Part shown: positions 1 to 6,987 of the stretch, piece after piece | Position numbering within the stretch: position 1 is the first letter of the stretch | How the letters are laid out: each line of letters starts with the position of its first letter | NCBI RefSeq assembly: GCF_902826555.1 | Contig: NZ_CADEFI010000031.1 | Location: forward strand, 1 to 42,225 | Direction of reading: 5' to 3' | Length of the DNA: 42,225 nt | From: an uncultured Hyphomicrobium sp. | Lineage (GTDB): Bacteria; Pseudomonadota; Alphaproteobacteria; Rhizobiales; Hyphomicrobiaceae | Program-made: the position numbers and the translations under genes | The notes under the pieces: generated by a model | The model's database searches: none | What the model saw: the letters and a program-made list of their open reading frames with translations, nothing else | What the model was told of the DNA's origin: nothing

Positions 1-157
1 GGCCGAGGTCGAGGCAATCGCATCCTGGTCAGGGTTTGTGGACCTCGAATATGGAAGCGACTGGGCGAGGTTTTCGCGTGCCGCGAGCAAATCGGTCAAA
101 TGTGAAGAAGCTGGAAGTGGGTGGGGATGCGCCGTCGAAGCCCGACCCTGCAAATAG
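1..157 (+). CDS. C-terminal end of an unidentified protein (partial)
   Basis: Frame 2 is open from the window edge to a TAG at 155-157 and gives 51 residues. They look like a real protein end: two tryptophans in an acidic/aromatic stretch, then a cysteine-spaced tail (KCEE, GWGCAV and a final ARPCK). A tail with W, C and a terminal PC resembles small secreted alphaproteobacterial proteins held by disulfides, but that is an impression, not a family match. The cytochrome gene starts 23 bases after the stop on the same strand, so the two may be co-transcribed. The gene starts outside the window and its function is unknown. It could still be a chance open frame. Confidence 0.5.
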   Translation, partial: AEVEAIASWSGFVDLEYGSDWARFSRAASKSVKCEEAGSGWGCAVEARPCK

Positions 158-180
158 TTGCAGACCTCTCGCCAGTTGTA

Positions 181-633
181 ATGCCGACGGGCCGGTGCGC
201 CGTGATCATGCTCGCGACGAGTTTTGTCCTGGGAGCCTGCGGCAATCAACTCAATAGCTCTCTTCGTGGTTCCGAGGAGCGCGTCGCCATCCGGCTCTCC
301 GTTAAGGAGAGCGAGCATCTGCGTCAGGGCATGCAGCGCTATCTCGCAAGCGTTCAAGGGATCGTCGAAGCATTGCACCACAACAAGCGTGTCGCCGTAT
401 CAGAGAGCGCAAAAAACGGTGGGGTGGGGATGTTGAGCGGGGTCCCAGCTTCAGTTGCGGTTCGTCTGCCGCCAGAGTTCCTTATGCTCAGTATGGACAC
501 GCATCAGAAATTCGATGCTCTGTCCCGCTCTGCCGCAGCGGGCGAATCCAAATCTCAAATGTTGAAGCAGCTCGGCGATATCCTCGCCAACTGCACAGCG
601 TGCCATGCCAAATATAAACTTACGCCGAATTAG
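181..633 (+). CDS. Class II (c'-type) monoheme cytochrome c, putative lipoprotein
   Basis: The start at 181 gives a 150-residue product with a short hydrophobic leader ending in the lipobox LGAC (Cys20), so it is probably a lipid-anchored protein facing the periplasm. An upstream ATG at 121 would add 20 residues and spoil the leader. The only heme motif, CTACH (Cys138, Cys141, His142), lies eight residues from the C terminus. This placement is typical of class II cytochromes c (c', c-556), which are four-helix bundles, and the middle of the protein is predicted helical and charged. The expected role is electron transfer or small-ligand binding; the partner is not evident. The next gene, a membrane protein, begins 125 bases downstream on the same strand. 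Confidence 0.75.
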   Translation: MPTGRCAVIMLATSFVLGACGNQLNSSLRGSEERVAIRLSVKESEHLRQGMQRYLASVQGIVEALHHNKRVAVSESAKNGGVGMLSGVPASVAVRLPPEFLMLSMDTHQKFDALSRSAAAGESKSQMLKQLGDILANCTACHAKYKLTPN

Positions 634-758
634 GCTGATCTGGCAGCCAGATATCTGGCTAATGCCGTAGGGCTGACCTGACATTGGTCAATATTGGCGG
701 GGCAGTTCCATGCGTCATCTATGGGGGAAGTGATCCGTTATTCGACCGGGCCTAAAAA

Positions 759-1232
759 ATGGACGACCTTACCGTCGCGCGCGCCTTCCACGTTCTTGCC
801 ATCGTCCATTGGATTGGCGGCGTGGCCATGGTGACCACTGTTATCCTTCCCGCCATCGATCGCCTGGCTGAGGCTTCCGAGCGTCTGCGGATGTTCGAGG
901 TCATTGAGGGCCGCTTCGGCCGGCAGGCGCGAATCTCGACGGCCGTTGCCGGCCTTACAGGTTTCTACATGACGTGGCGGCTTTCTGCATTTGACCGCTT
1001 TCTCGATCCGGCCTTCTGGTGGATGCATGCCATGGTCGGGATCTGGGTGATTTTCACTTTCGTCTTGTTTATCGCCGAGCCTCTTTTTCTGCACCGCTGG
1101 CTCCGCAAGCGCGCGGCAATCGATCCCGACGGCACATTTCGCCTCGTGGTGCGGCTTCATTGGTTTCTCCTCTCGCTCAGCCTCGCGACACTGGCAGGGG
1201 CCGTTCTGGGTGCACATGGTGCCCTTGCATAA
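759..1232 (+). CDS. CopD-like four-helix integral membrane protein
   Basis: 157 residues with about four hydrophobic segments (roughly residues 6-32, 58-76, 86-108 and 128-152). Histidines lie in or next to the first segment (His11 in FHVLAIVHW, His17), the third (WMHAM) and the fourth (RLHWF). This matches small CopD-family or related membrane proteins in which paired histidines may bind heme b or copper. Together with the preceding c-type cytochrome this suggests a small membrane electron-transfer or metal-handling pair, which is inference from position only. No clear Shine-Dalgarno sequence precedes the ATG. A generic DUF membrane protein is equally possible. Confidence 0.55.
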   Translation: MDDLTVARAFHVLAIVHWIGGVAMVTTVILPAIDRLAEASERLRMFEVIEGRFGRQARISTAVAGLTGFYMTWRLSAFDRFLDPAFWWMHAMVGIWVIFTFVLFIAEPLFLHRWLRKRAAIDPDGTFRLVVRLHWFLLSLSLATLAGAVLGAHGALA

Positions 1233-1356
1233 GGCCGTGGGTGAGACATGGAGACTGCACTTTCTCTGCGAGCGGCTTGATGTTTGTTAAGTGCCGAGTG
1301 ACCCTTTGGCTCCTCCTATAGAGCGGAATAATTGGTGATCTCTTGGGAGAAGCCCT

Positions 1357-2394
1357 ATGTCTTGCTCGTTTTGGGACGACATCCAAACCGGGGGGCAGCT
1401 CGATCTCGGCAGTGTAGATGTCTCGCAGAATGACATCGTCCGTTTCGCCTCCGAGTTCGACGCTCAGCCGTTCCACACCGATGAGGAGGCTGCGCGTGCG
1501 ACGCTGCTCGGCGGGTTGTCGGCGTCCGGATGGCATACATGCACGCTCATCATGCGTCTGCTCGAGGAGGCGATCGCTCGTCACTCGGGCGTTTTGGAAA
1601 CTGCGGGTCTCGATGACATCATCTGGCTGAAGCCCGTGCGTCCGGGCGACGTATTGAGCGGCAGGATCCGCTGGTCCCGGGAGGCCGCCTGTTCCTGTGG
1701 TAGCGGAGCGAGGGTCAGGGGAGCAGACATCGGGGTGCGCAATCAGCACGGGGAGGTCGTGATGCAGTGGCGGATGAGCTGTCTGATCGCGCCGCCCACA
1801 GATCCCCGTCGCGAGATTCCGAAAGACTGCCCAATACGCAAAGGGCGGGCAGCGCGCGTGCTCCCTCGACCGGGCGATCACGCTATCAAGTACTTTGAGG
1901 ATGTTGCACCGGGGGACGAGATCGCGCTTGGCGAGTACGCCTTCACGATGGATAGGATCGCCGATTTCCGCGCACGTTACGGGCCTGGAAGTGCGTATGA
2001 CGAGACCATCCATCCGGGCATGACATACGGTGGCAATGAGACAGCGCTCGCGTGGCATGTGACAGCAGTATGGATGCACTGCATCGTGCGCTACTACGAG
2101 CATCAGGCCGCACGACTTCGACGGCAGGCCAAGCCGGTGCCTCTGCTCGGACCCGCCGTGGGAGTGAAGCACCTGCGGTGGCACTTGCCTGTTGGCATGG
2201 GCGAGACGATTACGTTTCGTGCCTGGGCCGAGCGCAAGATCGAGACCTCACGCCCGGACTGGGGTCTCCTTGTTGTCGGAGCGGTGGGAGAGAACCGGCG
2301 GGGCGACACTGTCGTCTCATTCTACCCTCAGATGCTCCTTGAGCGTCGCACGGGGCGGTGTTGCGGAGAGGCCTCCGACAAGCCGTTCCAATAA
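1357..2394 (+). CDS. Double-hotdog MaoC-like dehydratase family protein
   Basis: 345 residues, preceded by a good ribosome site (GGGAGAA, five bases before ATG). The N-terminal half carries the MaoC hydratase signature: FASEFDAQPFHTDEEAA (about residues 29-46), where Asp and His would be the catalytic pair of R-specific enoyl-CoA hydratases, followed by GLSASGWHT for the substrate pocket. The C-terminal half (about 165-330) looks like a second hotdog domain, starting at KYFEDVAPGDEI, with HPGMTYGG where the second signature would be, so the protein is a fused pair of hotdogs. Expected chemistry is hydration/dehydration of an acyl-CoA; the substrate is unknown. The short basic C-terminal tail is not part of either domain. 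Confidence 0.8.
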   Translation: MSCSFWDDIQTGGQLDLGSVDVSQNDIVRFASEFDAQPFHTDEEAARATLLGGLSASGWHTCTLIMRLLEEAIARHSGVLETAGLDDIIWLKPVRPGDVLSGRIRWSREAACSCGSGARVRGADIGVRNQHGEVVMQWRMSCLIAPPTDPRREIPKDCPIRKGRAARVLPRPGDHAIKYFEDVAPGDEIALGEYAFTMDRIADFRARYGPGSAYDETIHPGMTYGGNETALAWHVTAVWMHCIVRYYEHQAARLRRQAKPVPLLGPAVGVKHLRWHLPVGMGETITFRAWAERKIETSRPDWGLLVVGAVGENRRGDTVVSFYPQMLLERRTGRCCGEASDKPFQ

Positions 2395-3092
2395 TCGGCA
2401 CCTGAGCGAATGGGCAGAAGTCGCCTCTGATGACGTGCGAAGCTCTTCGTTCCGCAATCTGCTTGCGTTAACCTAGTTGAGATCGAATGTCCTCGCAGAG
2501 GGGCCAAGGCGCGAAGGCGAGGCATGCGCTTGCTCTTGCGGGCCAGATCAAGGTGGCGGTTGTTCGTCTCCTGCCCTGGCCCGTTGCCTTGGTTCGTCCC
2601 TCCCCGGCCTCACGTCCCTTCGGCATTAAAAGTGTGGCAGTCCTTCGCCGTCCATTGGCGTCCCACGCGGACAGAGAGCCTATTCCCTTATGCTGCAACA
2701 TCTCCGGGGCTGGACGGCTTCGACGCCTATTCCGAGCCGTTTGGCTTGTGCTGACCTGCGGATAGGTTTTCTCTCGTCCTCGCGTCCAGAGGTGCGCTCC
2801 CATCTAATCCGAGCTGGCGTGACGATCCCTGCTTTCGTGTCCGCTCAGCCACCCCCGCCCCTTGTCGTGCAAACTACGGCCGGCGGCGCCCTGGGAGAAA
2901 ACCCTCGCGCTCTCGGTTTTTGTTCCCCGCCGCTCTGCCGATCGGCTCCTCGCGCCGCTTCCGCTGCAAAAAAACCTTGGGCTCGGGTCCTCCCGCTCCG
3001 GCCAAGATGGTTCCTCGGGCTTGAGCCGGCCGCTGGGTCCTGCACGCCGGCGGGAGATGGTCTCTCGCCGGACAATAGAAAGGACCAGTCAC
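2395..3092 (+). other. Gene-free 0.7-kb leader upstream of DUF736
   Basis: No frame on either strand has protein-like composition; the open frames present are rich in Arg, Pro and Ser. The stretch is pyrimidine-rich on the plus strand from about 2770 to 3010 and contains a run of seven A at about 2969. It ends in a strong hairpin and a ribosome site for the DUF736 gene. Either it contains the DUF736 promoter and a long structured 5' leader, or it is decayed island DNA. Confidence 0.5.
3047..3071 (+). promoter_or_regulatory. Leader hairpin just upstream of the DUF736 ribosome site
   Basis: The arms 3047-3057 and 3061-3071 pair over 11 bp (one G.U) around a three-base loop. The hairpin ends seven bases before the Shine-Dalgarno GAAAGGA (3078-3084) and 21 bases before the ATG. 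No T-run follows, so it is not an obvious terminator. A 5' mRNA stabiliser, a protein-binding site or a translational control element are all possible. Confidence 0.5.
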
Positions 3093-3416
3093 ATGGCTAC
3101 CATCGGATCTGTCACGAAGCGCGAAGATGGCCGCTTTGAAGGCGAGCTCAGAACCCTGTCGATCCGCGCCGAGATCGCACTCCTGCCGGTCTCGGACAAG
3201 TCGTCGCCGAACCAGCCCGACTATCGGGTGATGTCGCAAGGCATCGAGATCGGCGCCGGGTGGATCCGCAAGGGTCAAACCTCCGGCAAGGAGTACGTCG
3301 CGCTTTCGATTGCCGCTCCGGAGTTCGGGTCGAGGACGCTCTACGCGAACCTCGGCCGGGCGGCAGGCCAGGACGATGACAGCGTCTATGCGCTGATCTG
3401 GAACCCGCAAGAGTAA
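3093..3416 (+). CDS. DUF736 family protein
   Basis: 107 residues beginning MATIGSVTKREDGRFEGEL, with LSIRAEI, the central IGAGWIRKGQTSGKEYVALSI and the late YANLGRA, matching the compact all-beta DUF736 family throughout its length. The start is fixed by GAAAGGA eight bases upstream. The family's biochemical function is unknown. It is frequent on plasmids, integrative conjugative elements and symbiosis islands of Rhizobiales, usually beside replication or transfer genes. Here it stands alone with no recognisable transfer gene nearby, which suggests a remnant or a minimal element. Its own terminator follows. Confidence 0.85.
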   Translation: MATIGSVTKREDGRFEGELRTLSIRAEIALLPVSDKSSPNQPDYRVMSQGIEIGAGWIRKGQTSGKEYVALSIAAPEFGSRTLYANLGRAAGQDDDSVYALIWNPQE

Positions 3417-3436
3417 GAGCTCACGCTCTCCCCTTC

Positions 3437-3467
3437 GCCCTCGTGCCCTCCCGGCACGAGGGCTTTT
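3437..3467 (+). terminator. Rho-independent terminator of the DUF736 gene
   Basis: A perfect 11-bp stem (3437-3447 with 3453-3463) around a five-base loop is followed directly by TTTT. It lies 20 bases after the DUF736 stop codon. Confidence 0.9.
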
Positions 3468-3957
3468 GCTTAACTTGAGAGCAGGGTGTGCTGACCCCCG
3501 ATCCGTCTCTCACGCCGGGCCGCGCACTCGAGACTATGGACAGTGCGTGTGCGCTCCCGGAATGAGTTCGCGTGATGACGCGTGAACATGAACTCGCATG
3601 CACTTGCATGAAGGAATTGGTGACAGGCAGAGCGTAGGGACTGAGATCAGGATAAAGGACTGACGTCATTCGAGCGTCAAGGCTCACAACGACGGGCACT
3701 TGGCAGACGTCAGCAAAGTGCCGATGACGCTACCGCTCAAAATTCCTGTTCGCGGTCTGTGTGCTGTTTGACGCCGACTTGAATTTGTCGTCCCCAACGC
3801 CATCTCGTCACGCCGTCGCGCACAAGCGAAATGCAAAGCAAGGTGCAAAGCTCTCAATAGGGGGCGCCGCGCCCTAATCCGTTGGCTGTGTGGAAGCGCT
3901 AGACCAGTATGCGCTGCCCTTTAGGCGGCTCCCTCCCGTTGGTCGGGTCACGCCCTA

Positions 3958-3977
3958 TCGCGCGCCCCGGCGCGCGA
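3958..3977. repeat. GC-rich palindrome
   Basis: A 9-bp arm (3958-3966) is exactly complementary to 3969-3977 with a two-base centre. It can form a cruciform or a tight hairpin, or bind a dimeric protein. No T-run follows. Confidence 0.6.
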
Positions 3978-4035
3978 CCGAGCCCGCAAGCGGTCTCGGC
4001 CCATGCGGGTTGCGGTCGTTTCCGCAAGTGAAGTG

Positions 4036-4082
4036 CAGAGCAGAGCAGAGCAGAGCAGAGCAGAGCAGAGCAGAGCAGAGAG
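4036..4082 (+). repeat. Pentanucleotide tandem array (CAGAG)9
   Basis: Nine perfect CAGAG units (4036-4080) followed by AG. A five-base unit shifts frame with each unit gained or lost, as in phase-variable loci, but no credible gene runs through it. If functional it would more likely act through spacing or DNA structure. It sits between two inverted-repeat elements. Confidence 0.95.
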
Positions 4083-4132
4083 GTCAATACGGTCTTGTGC
4101 GCAGCGGCGCGCTCTGGCTCACCAAGGGGATG

Positions 4133-4192
4133 CCCCTCTCCGCCGCCGCCGCTCGCCGGTCGGGGCAAGCGAGCGACGGCGGCTCCGAGGGG
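4133..4192. repeat. 60-nt imperfect hairpin element
   Basis: An outer 6-bp stem (4133-4138 with 4187-4192) and an inner 15-bp stem (4142-4156 with 4169-4183, one mismatch) are separated by a small internal loop and close on a 12-base loop. There is no terminal T-run. The size and precision exceed what random GC-rich DNA usually gives. It may be a folded RNA or a single-strand DNA structure such as an origin element. Confidence 0.6.
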
Positions 4193-4609
4193 ATCTGAGG
4201 GATCCTGTACCAAGGCGTGAGAGGCGCGGATCATTGTTGCTCAGAAGGGCACCGCTGGTTGGCTCCGCCTCATGAGCACGCGTTTACCCGCTTATCCCAA
4301 TTGAGGTCGTGGGGGGAAGCCTCAAGAATGGGTCTCATGCGCTTGAGGCAAAAGAAGGAGGCGAGGCATGAGTGTGGTTCTGATGAAAGAAGAACGTCGC
4401 TCCGAGCGAGAACTGAGCGGCGGGAGCAGACCAGAGCGACCTTGAGCGACACCAGGAGTGATTGCGCGCTTCCCTAGCGCAATACCTCATCATGGCTGAG
4501 AGCCAGAACGCGAAGAGCGAGCTTTATCCCATGGGTCATCACTCGCCTTATCAATCGCGCCTTCTGCCGCGTCTCATCCGCTTTCGTCACGCGCCCTGCT
4601 ACCCACGGC

Positions 4610-4795
4610 ATGGAGGCGCTTGCTGCCGATGCCCTCGACCCGTTTGGCACGGACGCGACGGAAGCGACGCGCAAGCTCTCCTTACTCAAATCCGGTCCCG
4701 AGAAGGACATCTACAACCGGTACGGCAAACGCTGGCATCGCCCTACGCCCTACTTGCTCAATACGGATGCAATGTGCTCGCCTTCGGACAGTTGA
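4610..4795 (+). CDS. Possible small protein or gene remnant
   Basis: 61 codons from an ATG at 4610; the frame is open upstream to about 4487. Residues 2-42 have balanced, protein-like composition, including KSGPEKDIYNRYGKRW, unlike the Arg/Pro-rich noise around it. The last 46 bases overlap the 3' end of the convergent integrase gene and are probably not constrained. There is no clear ribosome site and I do not recognise the family. It may be the surviving piece of a longer island gene. A minus-strand frame over 4474-4710 is an alternative I rate lower. Confidence 0.25.
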   Translation: MEALAADALDPFGTDATEATRKLSLLKSGPEKDIYNRYGKRWHRPTPYLLNTDAMCSPSDS

Positions 4796-5844
4796 GCCTG
4801 CTTCTGTAGGCGGTGCAGATCCTCTGGCTTGAGGTTGGTGTAGCGACGTAACATTCGCCAATCCTTGTGACCTGTGACCAGCGCGACCCTCTCAATCGAT
4901 AGGCCTACCTCAAACAGACGGCTTGTCCCTTCGTGGCGGAGGTCATGAAAGTGTAGATCCTCGATCTCTAATTCTCGGCAAGCTCTGCGGAACGCGGTTC
5001 CGACTGACTTCCCGTTGTGGGGAAAGACGCGGCCAACGCCACGGGTGACAATTTTCTGCTCGAGCAGGATGGTCCAAGCGTCAAAGCCGGTGAGATTCAA
5101 GAGAGGCACTTTTTGGTGGTTGCCGTCCTTACGGCGCGGGTCCTTGCGATCCTTTACCGTGACAGTCTTTCTCTGTAGGTCGACATCGGTCCATTCGATG
5201 CGGCACAATTCGTCCTGGCGCATGGCGGTTGCTATGGCGAAGCGGATGATCCGCCCCATCGGAATCAATTGTCGGGAGTTGCTCTCAAAGTAGGTGATGA
5301 GCGCCTCGATCTCGTCATCGGTCGGCCGCCGATCCCGCTCGTTGCCCTTTCCAATAAGGCCAAGTCGGCTGAGCGCGACGCGGGCAAGACGCACTTCCTC
5401 TGCGGATACCTTCACACCGTGCAAGGCAGCGGCATGGGTCAGGATGGTCCGGATATAGGAAAAGTCGATGGACAGAGTTACGGGACCCGCTCCTTGCTTG
5501 AAGCGCCGGCGGCCATACTCGATCAACCGCTCACGCGTCAGATCTTTCAGGCGGGTATTGCCAAGGGTCTCTTTCAATGCGGCCAGCACAGCCGCTTTCG
5601 ATCGGCGGATCGCCTTGCCGACCTCTTGAAGGTCGCTCTCGTGGATGCGGATCAAGTCTCCGAAGGTCATCGGCGCCTTCGTGGATTTGGTCGGCGTGGT
5701 CTGGCCGAGATCTATCGCGCGCTCGACCTCGAGCGACCAGGTCTCAGCATCCCGACGGCGGAGAAATGTGTCGGACGCATAGCGCCCCTTGCGACGAACT
5801 TGGGCACGCCAGTGTCCGGACTTCAGTCTTGCGAAGGTGGCCAT
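4750..5844 (-). CDS. Tyrosine recombinase, dusA-associated island integrase
   Basis: 364 residues from the ATG at 5844 (a GTG three codons upstream is possible). It has an N-terminal SAM-like/arm-binding region (about 1-60), a core-binding domain (about 60-160) and a catalytic domain (about 175-350). All active-site residues are visible: Arg209 in TAMRQDELCRIEW, Lys near 234 in KDRKDPRRKDG, His300-x-x-Arg303 in HFHDLRHEG, His326 in VTGHKDW and nucleophile Tyr335 in LRRYTNL. The gene is therefore intact. It is transcribed away from dusA, with its start about 130 bases from the alternative dusA start, as in the integrase family that inserts islands at the 5' end of dusA. Repeats overlapping its start may allow autoregulation. 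Confidence 0.92.
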   Translation of the reverse strand: MATFARLKSGHWRAQVRRKGRYASDTFLRRRDAETWSLEVERAIDLGQTTPTKSTKAPMTFGDLIRIHESDLQEVGKAIRRSKAAVLAALKETLGNTRLKDLTRERLIEYGRRRFKQGAGPVTLSIDFSYIRTILTHAAALHGVKVSAEEVRLARVALSRLGLIGKGNERDRRPTDDEIEALITYFESNSRQLIPMGRIIRFAIATAMRQDELCRIEWTDVDLQRKTVTVKDRKDPRRKDGNHQKVPLLNLTGFDAWTILLEQKIVTRGVGRVFPHNGKSVGTAFRRACRELEIEDLHFHDLRHEGTSRLFEVGLSIERVALVTGHKDWRMLRRYTNLKPEDLHRLQKQAQLSEGEHIASVLSK

Positions 5845-5845
5845 C

Positions 5846-5941
5846 GTGTGCACTCACTCGCCGCGTGTGCGAATCCTGTGCAGTGACGCGCAGAATTCGC
5901 GGGACGTTCCGTGAAAACGAGTGCACACGCGAGTGCACACG
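5846..5941. promoter_or_regulatory. Repeat cluster between int and dusA: putative integrase arm sites or operator
   Basis: The 12-bp unit CGAGTGCACACG occurs twice in perfect tandem (5918-5929, 5930-5941). Its 10-bp core also lies in inverted orientation at 5846-5855, directly against the integrase start codon. A related GTGTGC lies at about 5865. Multiple directly and inversely repeated short sites beside a tyrosine recombinase gene are what arm-type binding sites look like, and occupancy of the 5846 copy would cover the int ribosome site. Function is inferred from position. Confidence 0.6.
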
Positions 5942-5976
5942 TTCACTCTTTGCCCTTTGAGACTGCGTCAAAATAC

Positions 5977-6987
5977 GTGAGAAATCAAGATCATAGGTTC
6001 TGCGTCGCCCCGATGATGGATTGGACGGACCGGCACTGCCGCTTCTTCCACCGCATCATGAGCAAGGGCGCGCGGCTCTACACGGAGATGGTGACGGCGG
6101 ATGCCGTTATTCATGGCGACCGTGCGCGGCTCATGGGGTTCAGCGCGGCGGAGCGGCCGCTGGCGCTGCAGCTCGGCGGTTCGAATCCGGTGAAGCTCGC
6201 TGAGGCGGCGGCCGTTGGCGAAGCCTTCGGCTACGACGAGATCAATCTCAATATCGGCTGTCCCTCTTCGCGCGTGCAGGAGGGCCGGTTCGGTGCATGT
6301 CTGATGGCCGAGCCGGATCTCGTGGCGGCGTGCGTGCGCGCCATGGGAGATCGCGTGCGCGTGCCGGTGACCGTGAAATGCCGGATCGGCATCGACGACC
6401 AGGACAGCGAGGCAGATCTTTCACGCTTCATCGCAACGGTCGCCGACGCCGGCGTGACGACGTTCATCGTGCATGCCCGCAAGGCGTGGCTCGATGGTCT
6501 TTCGCCAAAGGAGAACCGTGAGATTCCGCCGCTCGACTACGCCCGTGTCTACCGGCTCAAGGCGGCGCGGCCCGATCTCAAAATCGTCATCAACGGCGGC
6601 ATCGAAACGCTGGAGGCTGCTGCTGAGCACCTCGCGCACGTCGATGGCGTGATGCTGGGGCGTGCGGCCTATCAGACTCCTTACGTGCTTGCCGGTGTGG
6701 ATCAGGCATTTTTCGGCGTGACCTCGCCGCCGCTCGCCCGTGGCGAGGTGCTCGATCAGCTCGTGCCCTATGTGCACGCGCATCTGGTAGACGGCGGCCG
6801 GCTCAATTCCGTCTCGCGGCACATCCTCGGGCTCTATCACGGACAGCCGCGGGCACGGCAGTTCCGCCGCCATCTCTCCGAACACGGCGTTGGCGAGGGG
6901 CCCGGGCTCGATGTTCTGGTCGAGGCGATCGCGCTCGTCGAGGGACGTGGTTGTGCGATCGCGGCCGATGCCATGGCTGCCGGGTAG
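5977..6987 (+). CDS. dusA: tRNA-dihydrouridine synthase A
   Basis: FMN-dependent reduction of uridines in the tRNA D-loop. The hallmarks are FCVAPMMDWTDRHCRFFHR at the N terminus, LQLGG, NIGCPSSRVQEGRFGACLM with the catalytic Cys of GCPS, VKCRIGIDD, FIVHARKAWLDGLSPKENR, INGGI and the phosphate-binding VMLGRAAY. The GTG at 5977 gives 336 residues, near the family length. A GTG at 5911 would add 22 atypical residues encoded by the integrase-side repeats. Neither start has a strong ribosome site. The 5' end and promoter were probably supplied by the inserted island. The exporter gene follows after 11 bases. Confidence 0.93.
   Translation: MRNQDHRFCVAPMMDWTDRHCRFFHRIMSKGARLYTEMVTADAVIHGDRARLMGFSAAERPLALQLGGSNPVKLAEAAAVGEAFGYDEINLNIGCPSSRVQEGRFGACLMAEPDLVAACVRAMGDRVRVPVTVKCRIGIDDQDSEADLSRFIATVADAGVTTFIVHARKAWLDGLSPKENREIPPLDYARVYRLKAARPDLKIVINGGIETLEAAAEHLAHVDGVMLGRAAYQTPYVLAGVDQAFFGVTSPPLARGEVLDQLVPYVHAHLVDGGRLNSVSRHILGLYHGQPRARQFRRHLSEHGVGEGPGLDVLVEAIALVEGRGCAIAADAMAAG

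Follow-up and report, generated by a model that had tools for sequence, protein, structure and literature searches.

The window analysed here, a stretch of 42,225 bases that makes up the whole of contig C31 in an 81-contig draft assembly (G000; 99.9% completeness) of an uncultured Hyphomicrobium sp., very probably contains the attR end of a genomic island inserted into dusA by a dusA-associated integrase (DAI), the left end of which would lie on contig C51 together with a nar operon. One intact DAI, the remnant of another and two attachment (att) sites were detected in this genome, and its dusA gene has an island-type start. To the initial annotation, which had described the right end of a dusA-integrated island, these analyses add a probable left end on another contig, a probable nar cargo and the probable wreck of an older island beside the C51 site.

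The integrase gene occupies positions 4750 to 5844 of the minus strand and encodes 364 amino acids. Its open reading frame begins at a GTG codon (4750-5853(-)), and the ATG at 5844 was chosen as the start. The protein matched the Pfam Phage_integrase family (E = 3.6e-23), and alignment located the catalytic residues of a tyrosine recombinase at R209, K239, H300, R303, H326 and Y335, as numbered from this ATG. The R, H, R, H and Y residues were invariant in a 53-row alignment of integrases, and the K was present in 50 of the 53 rows. The gene reads away from the 5′ end of dusA, which lies on the plus strand. An intact recombinase with this orientation and these residue numbers had been proposed in the initial annotation and was confirmed in each respect. 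A sequence search of the PDB returned nothing at an E value of ≤0.01, and scans of the window with Rfam (at gathering scores) and for tRNA genes detected none.

A search of one genome per species yielded 58 relatives of this integrase, the nearest of which are Hyphomicrobiales. dusA was present in a head-on position beside 43 of these relatives, at distances of 83 to 408 bases, and was absent beside 13, for which at least 1.9 kb of flank was covered; the other two loci were cut by a contig edge. For relatives whose best segment had at least 55% identity (n = 18), a head-on dusA was found in 14, at 130 to 164 bases, the exceptions being L048, which is cut by a contig edge, and L051, L089 and L092, beside which there is no dusA. 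A tree was constructed with 53 rows, consisting of 47 from these loci plus mEp460, H66, Rci, lambda, P2 and XerD; L063, L077 and L082 (open frames of <300 amino acids), matches with <280 aligned residues and the C51, G005, G007 and G014 fragments were omitted. The window integrase was located within a 17-row clade in which every row is dusA adjacent (support, 100/98), and the DAI rows plus Rci were separated from lambda, P2 and XerD (97/87); the integrase hence groups with dusA-adjacent integrases, and Rci is nearer to it than the phage or Xer recombinases. PA7 and phages H66 and mEp460, which are named as DAI carriers in PMC4482086 (Farrugia et al. 2015), occupy another branch. The 41 dusA-adjacent rows do not form one clade against the outgroups (two changes are needed), several rows are long-branched, and one dusA-adjacent row, from Billgrantia, is unplaced near the base. 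On the evidence of its sequence and position in the tree, the window integrase belongs to the published DAI family, in agreement with its initial placement. Two other DAI loci are recorded here. A DAI beside a partial dusA (L073) was found in a metagenome-assembled genome labelled Opitutales (Verrucomicrobiota), which lies beyond the Proteobacteria, the range stated in PMC4482086; misbinning is likely, as the contig is only 6.5 kb. Another relative, with 63.8% identity (L202, 6001-7029), is encoded by a Variovorax replicon of 1.3 Mb that is recorded as a plasmid.

The dusA gene extends from 5977 to 6987 on the plus strand. Its open frame runs from a first GTG at 5911 to 6987, and comparison with relatives led us to choose the GTG at 5977 as the start; 132 bases separate the chosen starts of the integrase and dusA. 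The resulting protein scored 511.9 bits against the DusA equivalog PRK11815 (cut-off, 269). The frame from 5977 reads GTG AGA AAT CAA GAT CAT AGG, followed by a conserved TTC TGC. Comparison with relatives, two of which have an unrelated ATG start (G001 and G004), indicated that the gene opens with some seven codons of island type (counting the GTG) and is chromosomal thereafter, the crossover being placed approximately; the new 5′ end of dusA would, on this comparison, have been supplied by the island. The attR core (5989 to 6025, plus strand) overlaps the dusA codons. Between this core and the integrase lies the P arm of the right attachment site (5845 to 5988; 144 bases; no strand assigned), which contains four copies of TGTGCA/TGCACA, a count reached in 0 of 2,000 shuffles, and a perfect 12-base tandem repeat, CGAGTGCACACG, at 5918 to 5941. 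These repeats are probably arm sites for the integrase. A promoter scan of 5700 to 6100 detected no sigma-70-type site, and the two terminator-like sites found in this interval were the arm repeats themselves.

The dusA loci of seven genus-mates (G001 to G007) were compared with that of the window. In G001 and G004, dusA has its own ATG start, no integrase match (E ≤ 1e-5) was detected in ∼12 kb upstream, and the genes to the right of dusA (TauE and phosphoglucomutase) are conserved, indicating from the sequence comparison that these dusA sites are empty; relatives with an empty dusA, the comparison originally suggested, were thus available. Other DAIs are present in G002 (51% identity) and G006 (49%), and in these better-assembled genomes the att pairs are 36.6 kb and 12.2 kb apart, respectively. 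The sister species, G005, has a 98-amino-acid DAI fragment at a contig edge that is 93% identical to the window integrase. G007 has an island-type dusA start next to an integrase of the window type, of which just the N-terminal 47 residues are left. G003 also has an island-type dusA start; in the 1.4 kb upstream of it, up to the edge of the contig, no DAI was detected. The complete 12.2-kb dusA island of G006 (L141; G006:C1:2505001-2520000) is probably mobilisable, as it contains int, a ParA-type ATPase gene and a MobA/VirD2-like relaxase gene.

A 33-base att pattern was searched for with up to three mismatches. Two sites, with zero and two mismatches, were detected in the G000 genome, while a reversed control pattern gave no site in any of 40 genomes. 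The second copy of the core is located at G000:C51:7871-7907(-). As the window is a whole contig, this copy sits on another contig, and the second repeat anticipated in the initial annotation does exist. The island would be flanked by these two imperfect repeats, the pairing of the C51 copy with the window being an indirect one because it lies on the other contig. Read in the dusA direction, the C51 core is followed by left-end arm sequence and not by dusA. Ungapped identities of this arm over 70 bases were 54 for G005, 44 for a Bradyrhizobium canariense locus (L051), 36 for G006 and 30 for G002, values reached in 0, 0, 0 and 3 of 2,000 shuffles, respectively. The arm of another orphan site, L048, did not align with it (16/70). 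Integrase identities to the window were 93% for G005 (over 98 amino acids only), 61 to 66% for L051, 49% for G006 and 51% for G002; the arm ranking hence follows the integrase ranking with only G006 and G002 swapped, and the arm closest to that of C51 is from the genome with the closest integrase. TGTGCA was enriched in the P′ arm of G000 (two copies; 6/2,000 shuffles); the count in the G005 P′ arm was not unusual (308/2,000), and matching of sites between the P and P′ arms was not significant (28/300).

Because the C51 arm resembles the arm of G005, and the G005 integrase fragment shares 93% identity with the window integrase, we infer an island running from C51 through an assembly gap to C31, with the C51 site most likely its left end. 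Searches for contig ends overlapping positions 1 to 400 of the window found none, the best other match being 46 bases at 80% inside contig C19, and a similar search with C51 1-400, in which 40 of 81 candidates were scored, also found no overlapping contig end. The GC content is 0.617 on the nar side of C51, 0.605 for window positions 1 to 5850 and 0.655 for 6001 to 42225; GC content cannot separate island from flank at C51, as the outer part of that contig has a value of 0.616. The orthologue of the neighbourhood upstream in G001 maps to contig C67.

Directly inside the C51 arm are an 89-amino-acid open reading frame and a gene for a PPIC-type PPIase, followed by narI, narJ, narH and narG, each assigned to its TIGR family above the cut-off. 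This narGHJI operon, the clearest putative cargo, lies outside the window. narG is cut by the contig start at C51:3; the N terminus of G001 narG matched C51 from base 3 and elsewhere gave two weak places with E values of 0.3 or worse. At E ≤ 1e-100, narH was detected in three of the seven genus-mates (G001, G003 and G004) and not in G002, G005, G006 or G007. The NarH proteins of the three positive genomes cluster with a support of 92/95, just under the strong-support mark of the tool, and a tree in which G000 NarH was constrained to group with its genus-mates was rejected, modestly (p-AU = 0.038). In the NarH tree, for which the bootstrap had not settled, G000 had no supported placement elsewhere; in a joined NarG/H/I tree, which is unrooted and has some partial rows, G000 grouped with G047, a member of another family, at 98. 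The operon looks foreign from these comparisons, in line with acquisition by way of the island and also with transfer by another route. Its genes would presumably be used by the G000 organism. No nar genes were found beside a DAI within the fetched flanks of the 58 integrase loci, and no DAI match (E ≤ 1e-3) was found in the 35 kb surrounding the nar genes of G047. No report of a dusA island with nitrate reductase was found in the literature searched, which yielded a study of a Shewanella prophage, and the main text of PMC4482086, supplement excluded, does not contain the word nitrate. A narK match on contig C20 was considered as a part of the island and rejected: it is adjoined by NirB (above cut-off) and a NasC-like reductase (below cut-off), indicating an assimilatory cluster.

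Within the window, the probable or possible island genes lie to the left of the integrase, all on the plus strand. A DUF736 protein is encoded at 3093 to 3416 (PF05284; E = 1.7e-27), as first described, and 1,050 of 72,556 plasmid records contain a segment spanning 80% or more of this gene. A MaoC-like dehydratase (1357 to 2394; Pfam) is probable cargo, a CopD-like membrane protein (759 to 1232) and a cytochrome c′-like protein (121 to 633) possible cargo. The latter two names are weak because their Pfam scores are below the gathering scores (21.8 versus 32.1 bits and 23.4 versus 26.5 bits, respectively). The proposal that these three genes are cargo is plausible; for the MaoC-like gene, no match (E ≤ 1e-30) was found in any of the seven genus-mates. 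None of 18 further open reading frames between 36 and 4832 had a Pfam match above its gathering score, which bears out the description of this flank as gene-poor, and these frames and the named window proteins included no recognisable transfer gene or prtN/rdfN-type gene. The flank also contains a perfect pentanucleotide array (GCAGA, 9.2 copies; 4035 to 4080) between the DUF736 gene and int, a GC-rich segment (4111 to 4194) with 77 to 80% identity to unannotated DNA of two Bradyrhizobium plasmids and a long hairpin predicted for the minus strand of 4100 to 4210 (z = -2.86, 0/200 shuffles; plus strand, z = -0.42).

Remains of a second DAI, consisting of N-terminal pieces in two frames, were detected at approximately C51:7994-8228, on the outer side of the core and opposite to nar; the best match was the integrase fragment of G014. 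As the remains of the second DAI lie on the outer side, dusA has probably been hit at least twice, and we read the layout of C51 as old island, core and then left end of the window's island. In B. canariense L051 (7830-9105), a frame-broken DAI likewise has an att site that runs into a left-end arm, and no dusA is present within the 17 kb covered. As judged from its sequence, this locus is a second example, after C51, in which a later island was inserted next to the broken integrase of an earlier one. Adjacent to the broken DAI on C51 (L003, 8799-10928), genes of the MbnB/TglH/ChrH family, DUF2063 and DoxX are present in a row that looks like a RiPP-type cluster.

These observations can be accommodated by a single series of events. 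The integrase would act between a short core carried by the circularised island and the matching bases within the 5′ portion of dusA. This would sever the gene from its native start, which would give way to an island-carried start codon and about six further codons, leaving the frame open. The order of the integrated island would be C51 (nar), an unassembled gap and then C31 (cytochrome c′-like, CopD-like, MaoC, DUF736 and int). Its insertion would have taken place beside an earlier dusA island, now represented outside the C51 core by an attachment arm and a frame-broken N-terminal piece of another DAI.

Other explanations differ considerably in their merit. Integrases can outlast their cargo at insertion sites, and a resident chromosomal integrase might by chance adjoin dusA with no island involved; this is scarcely credible for the window, since the same int-dusA pair is not present in all relatives, dusA is empty in G001 and G004 and beside different DAIs in G002 and G006, the att sites are paired and the GC content falls from 0.655 to 0.605 to the left of the site. 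An unlikely alternative, of more substance, is that the C51 site derives from a different, second dusA-type island and that narGHJI is not cargo of the island of the window integrase. The contig-end searches found nothing that bridges C51 and C31, which are separate in the assembly, and the DAI remnant implies that more than one island has been present at the C51 site. This remnant is, however, across the core from nar, the nar-side arm is closest to that of G005 (54/70), with its 93% identical integrase fragment, and the genome was found to contain a single intact DAI and two att sites. C51 and C31 are, on this balance, better interpreted as the ends of one island.

A stronger competitor, to which we attach appreciable weight while considering it less probable than not, is that the integrase end no longer works, being what is left of a decayed island that has lost its mobility and merely kept int and the arms. 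No gene was recognised between 3.4 and 4.7 kb of the window, no transfer or rdfN gene was seen, and G007 demonstrates decay of the same int type to 47 N-terminal residues with persistence of the island-type dusA start. Against this, the frame and catalytic residues of the G000 integrase are intact and the P and P′ arms are both recognisable. The island of the window may still be able to excise.

With the linkage of C51 and C31, a further dusA island would have both of its probable ends located in a draft genome; if true, the linkage would mean that an anaerobic respiration operon has travelled on such an island. It is the island-side arm, rather than the short core, that points to the integrase of an orphan end. 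On balance, we favour a broader proposal, with less assurance than the island itself: that a dusA island was the vehicle for the only respiratory nitrate reductase (narGHJI) of this species and settled atop an earlier broken island, that dusA is a serially reused dock at which each arrival swaps the start, and that left arms vary with the integrase, such that orphan ends can be matched across contigs.

The element shares with the dusA-specific islands of PMC4482086 the integrase family, the location at the 5′ end of dusA, the orientation, the imperfect att repeats and the replaced dusA 5′ end; it differs in host genus and, as far as the main text of that study goes, in cargo. A prtN/rdfN-type directionality factor was reported for 60 of 94 of those islands. 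With the dusA-specific SGI1-like elements of Vibrio, such as IMEVchUSA3 (PMC8409611), it has in common the target, the att logic and a new DusA N terminus; the SGI1-like mobilisation genes and the rdfN gene of the Vibrio elements had no recognised counterpart in the C31 and C51 parts. Excision of the Vibrio element requires Int and RdfN, and a lacZ fusion indicated that dusA is still expressed, though less, after the start swap (PMC8409611); by analogy, expression of dusA would be expected to continue in G000. A tandem pair of islands at dusA has also been reported (PMC8409611). The shufflon recombinase Rci, the nearest characterised recombinase among those in the tree, shares the catalytic residues and ∼37% identity over the matched part; Rci acts on shufflon segments (PMC4482086), whereas the window integrase is found at a dusA attachment site. 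The element and its mechanism are of a kind known from PMC4482086 and PMC8409611, and the probable nar cargo and layered insertion are its less ordinary parts.
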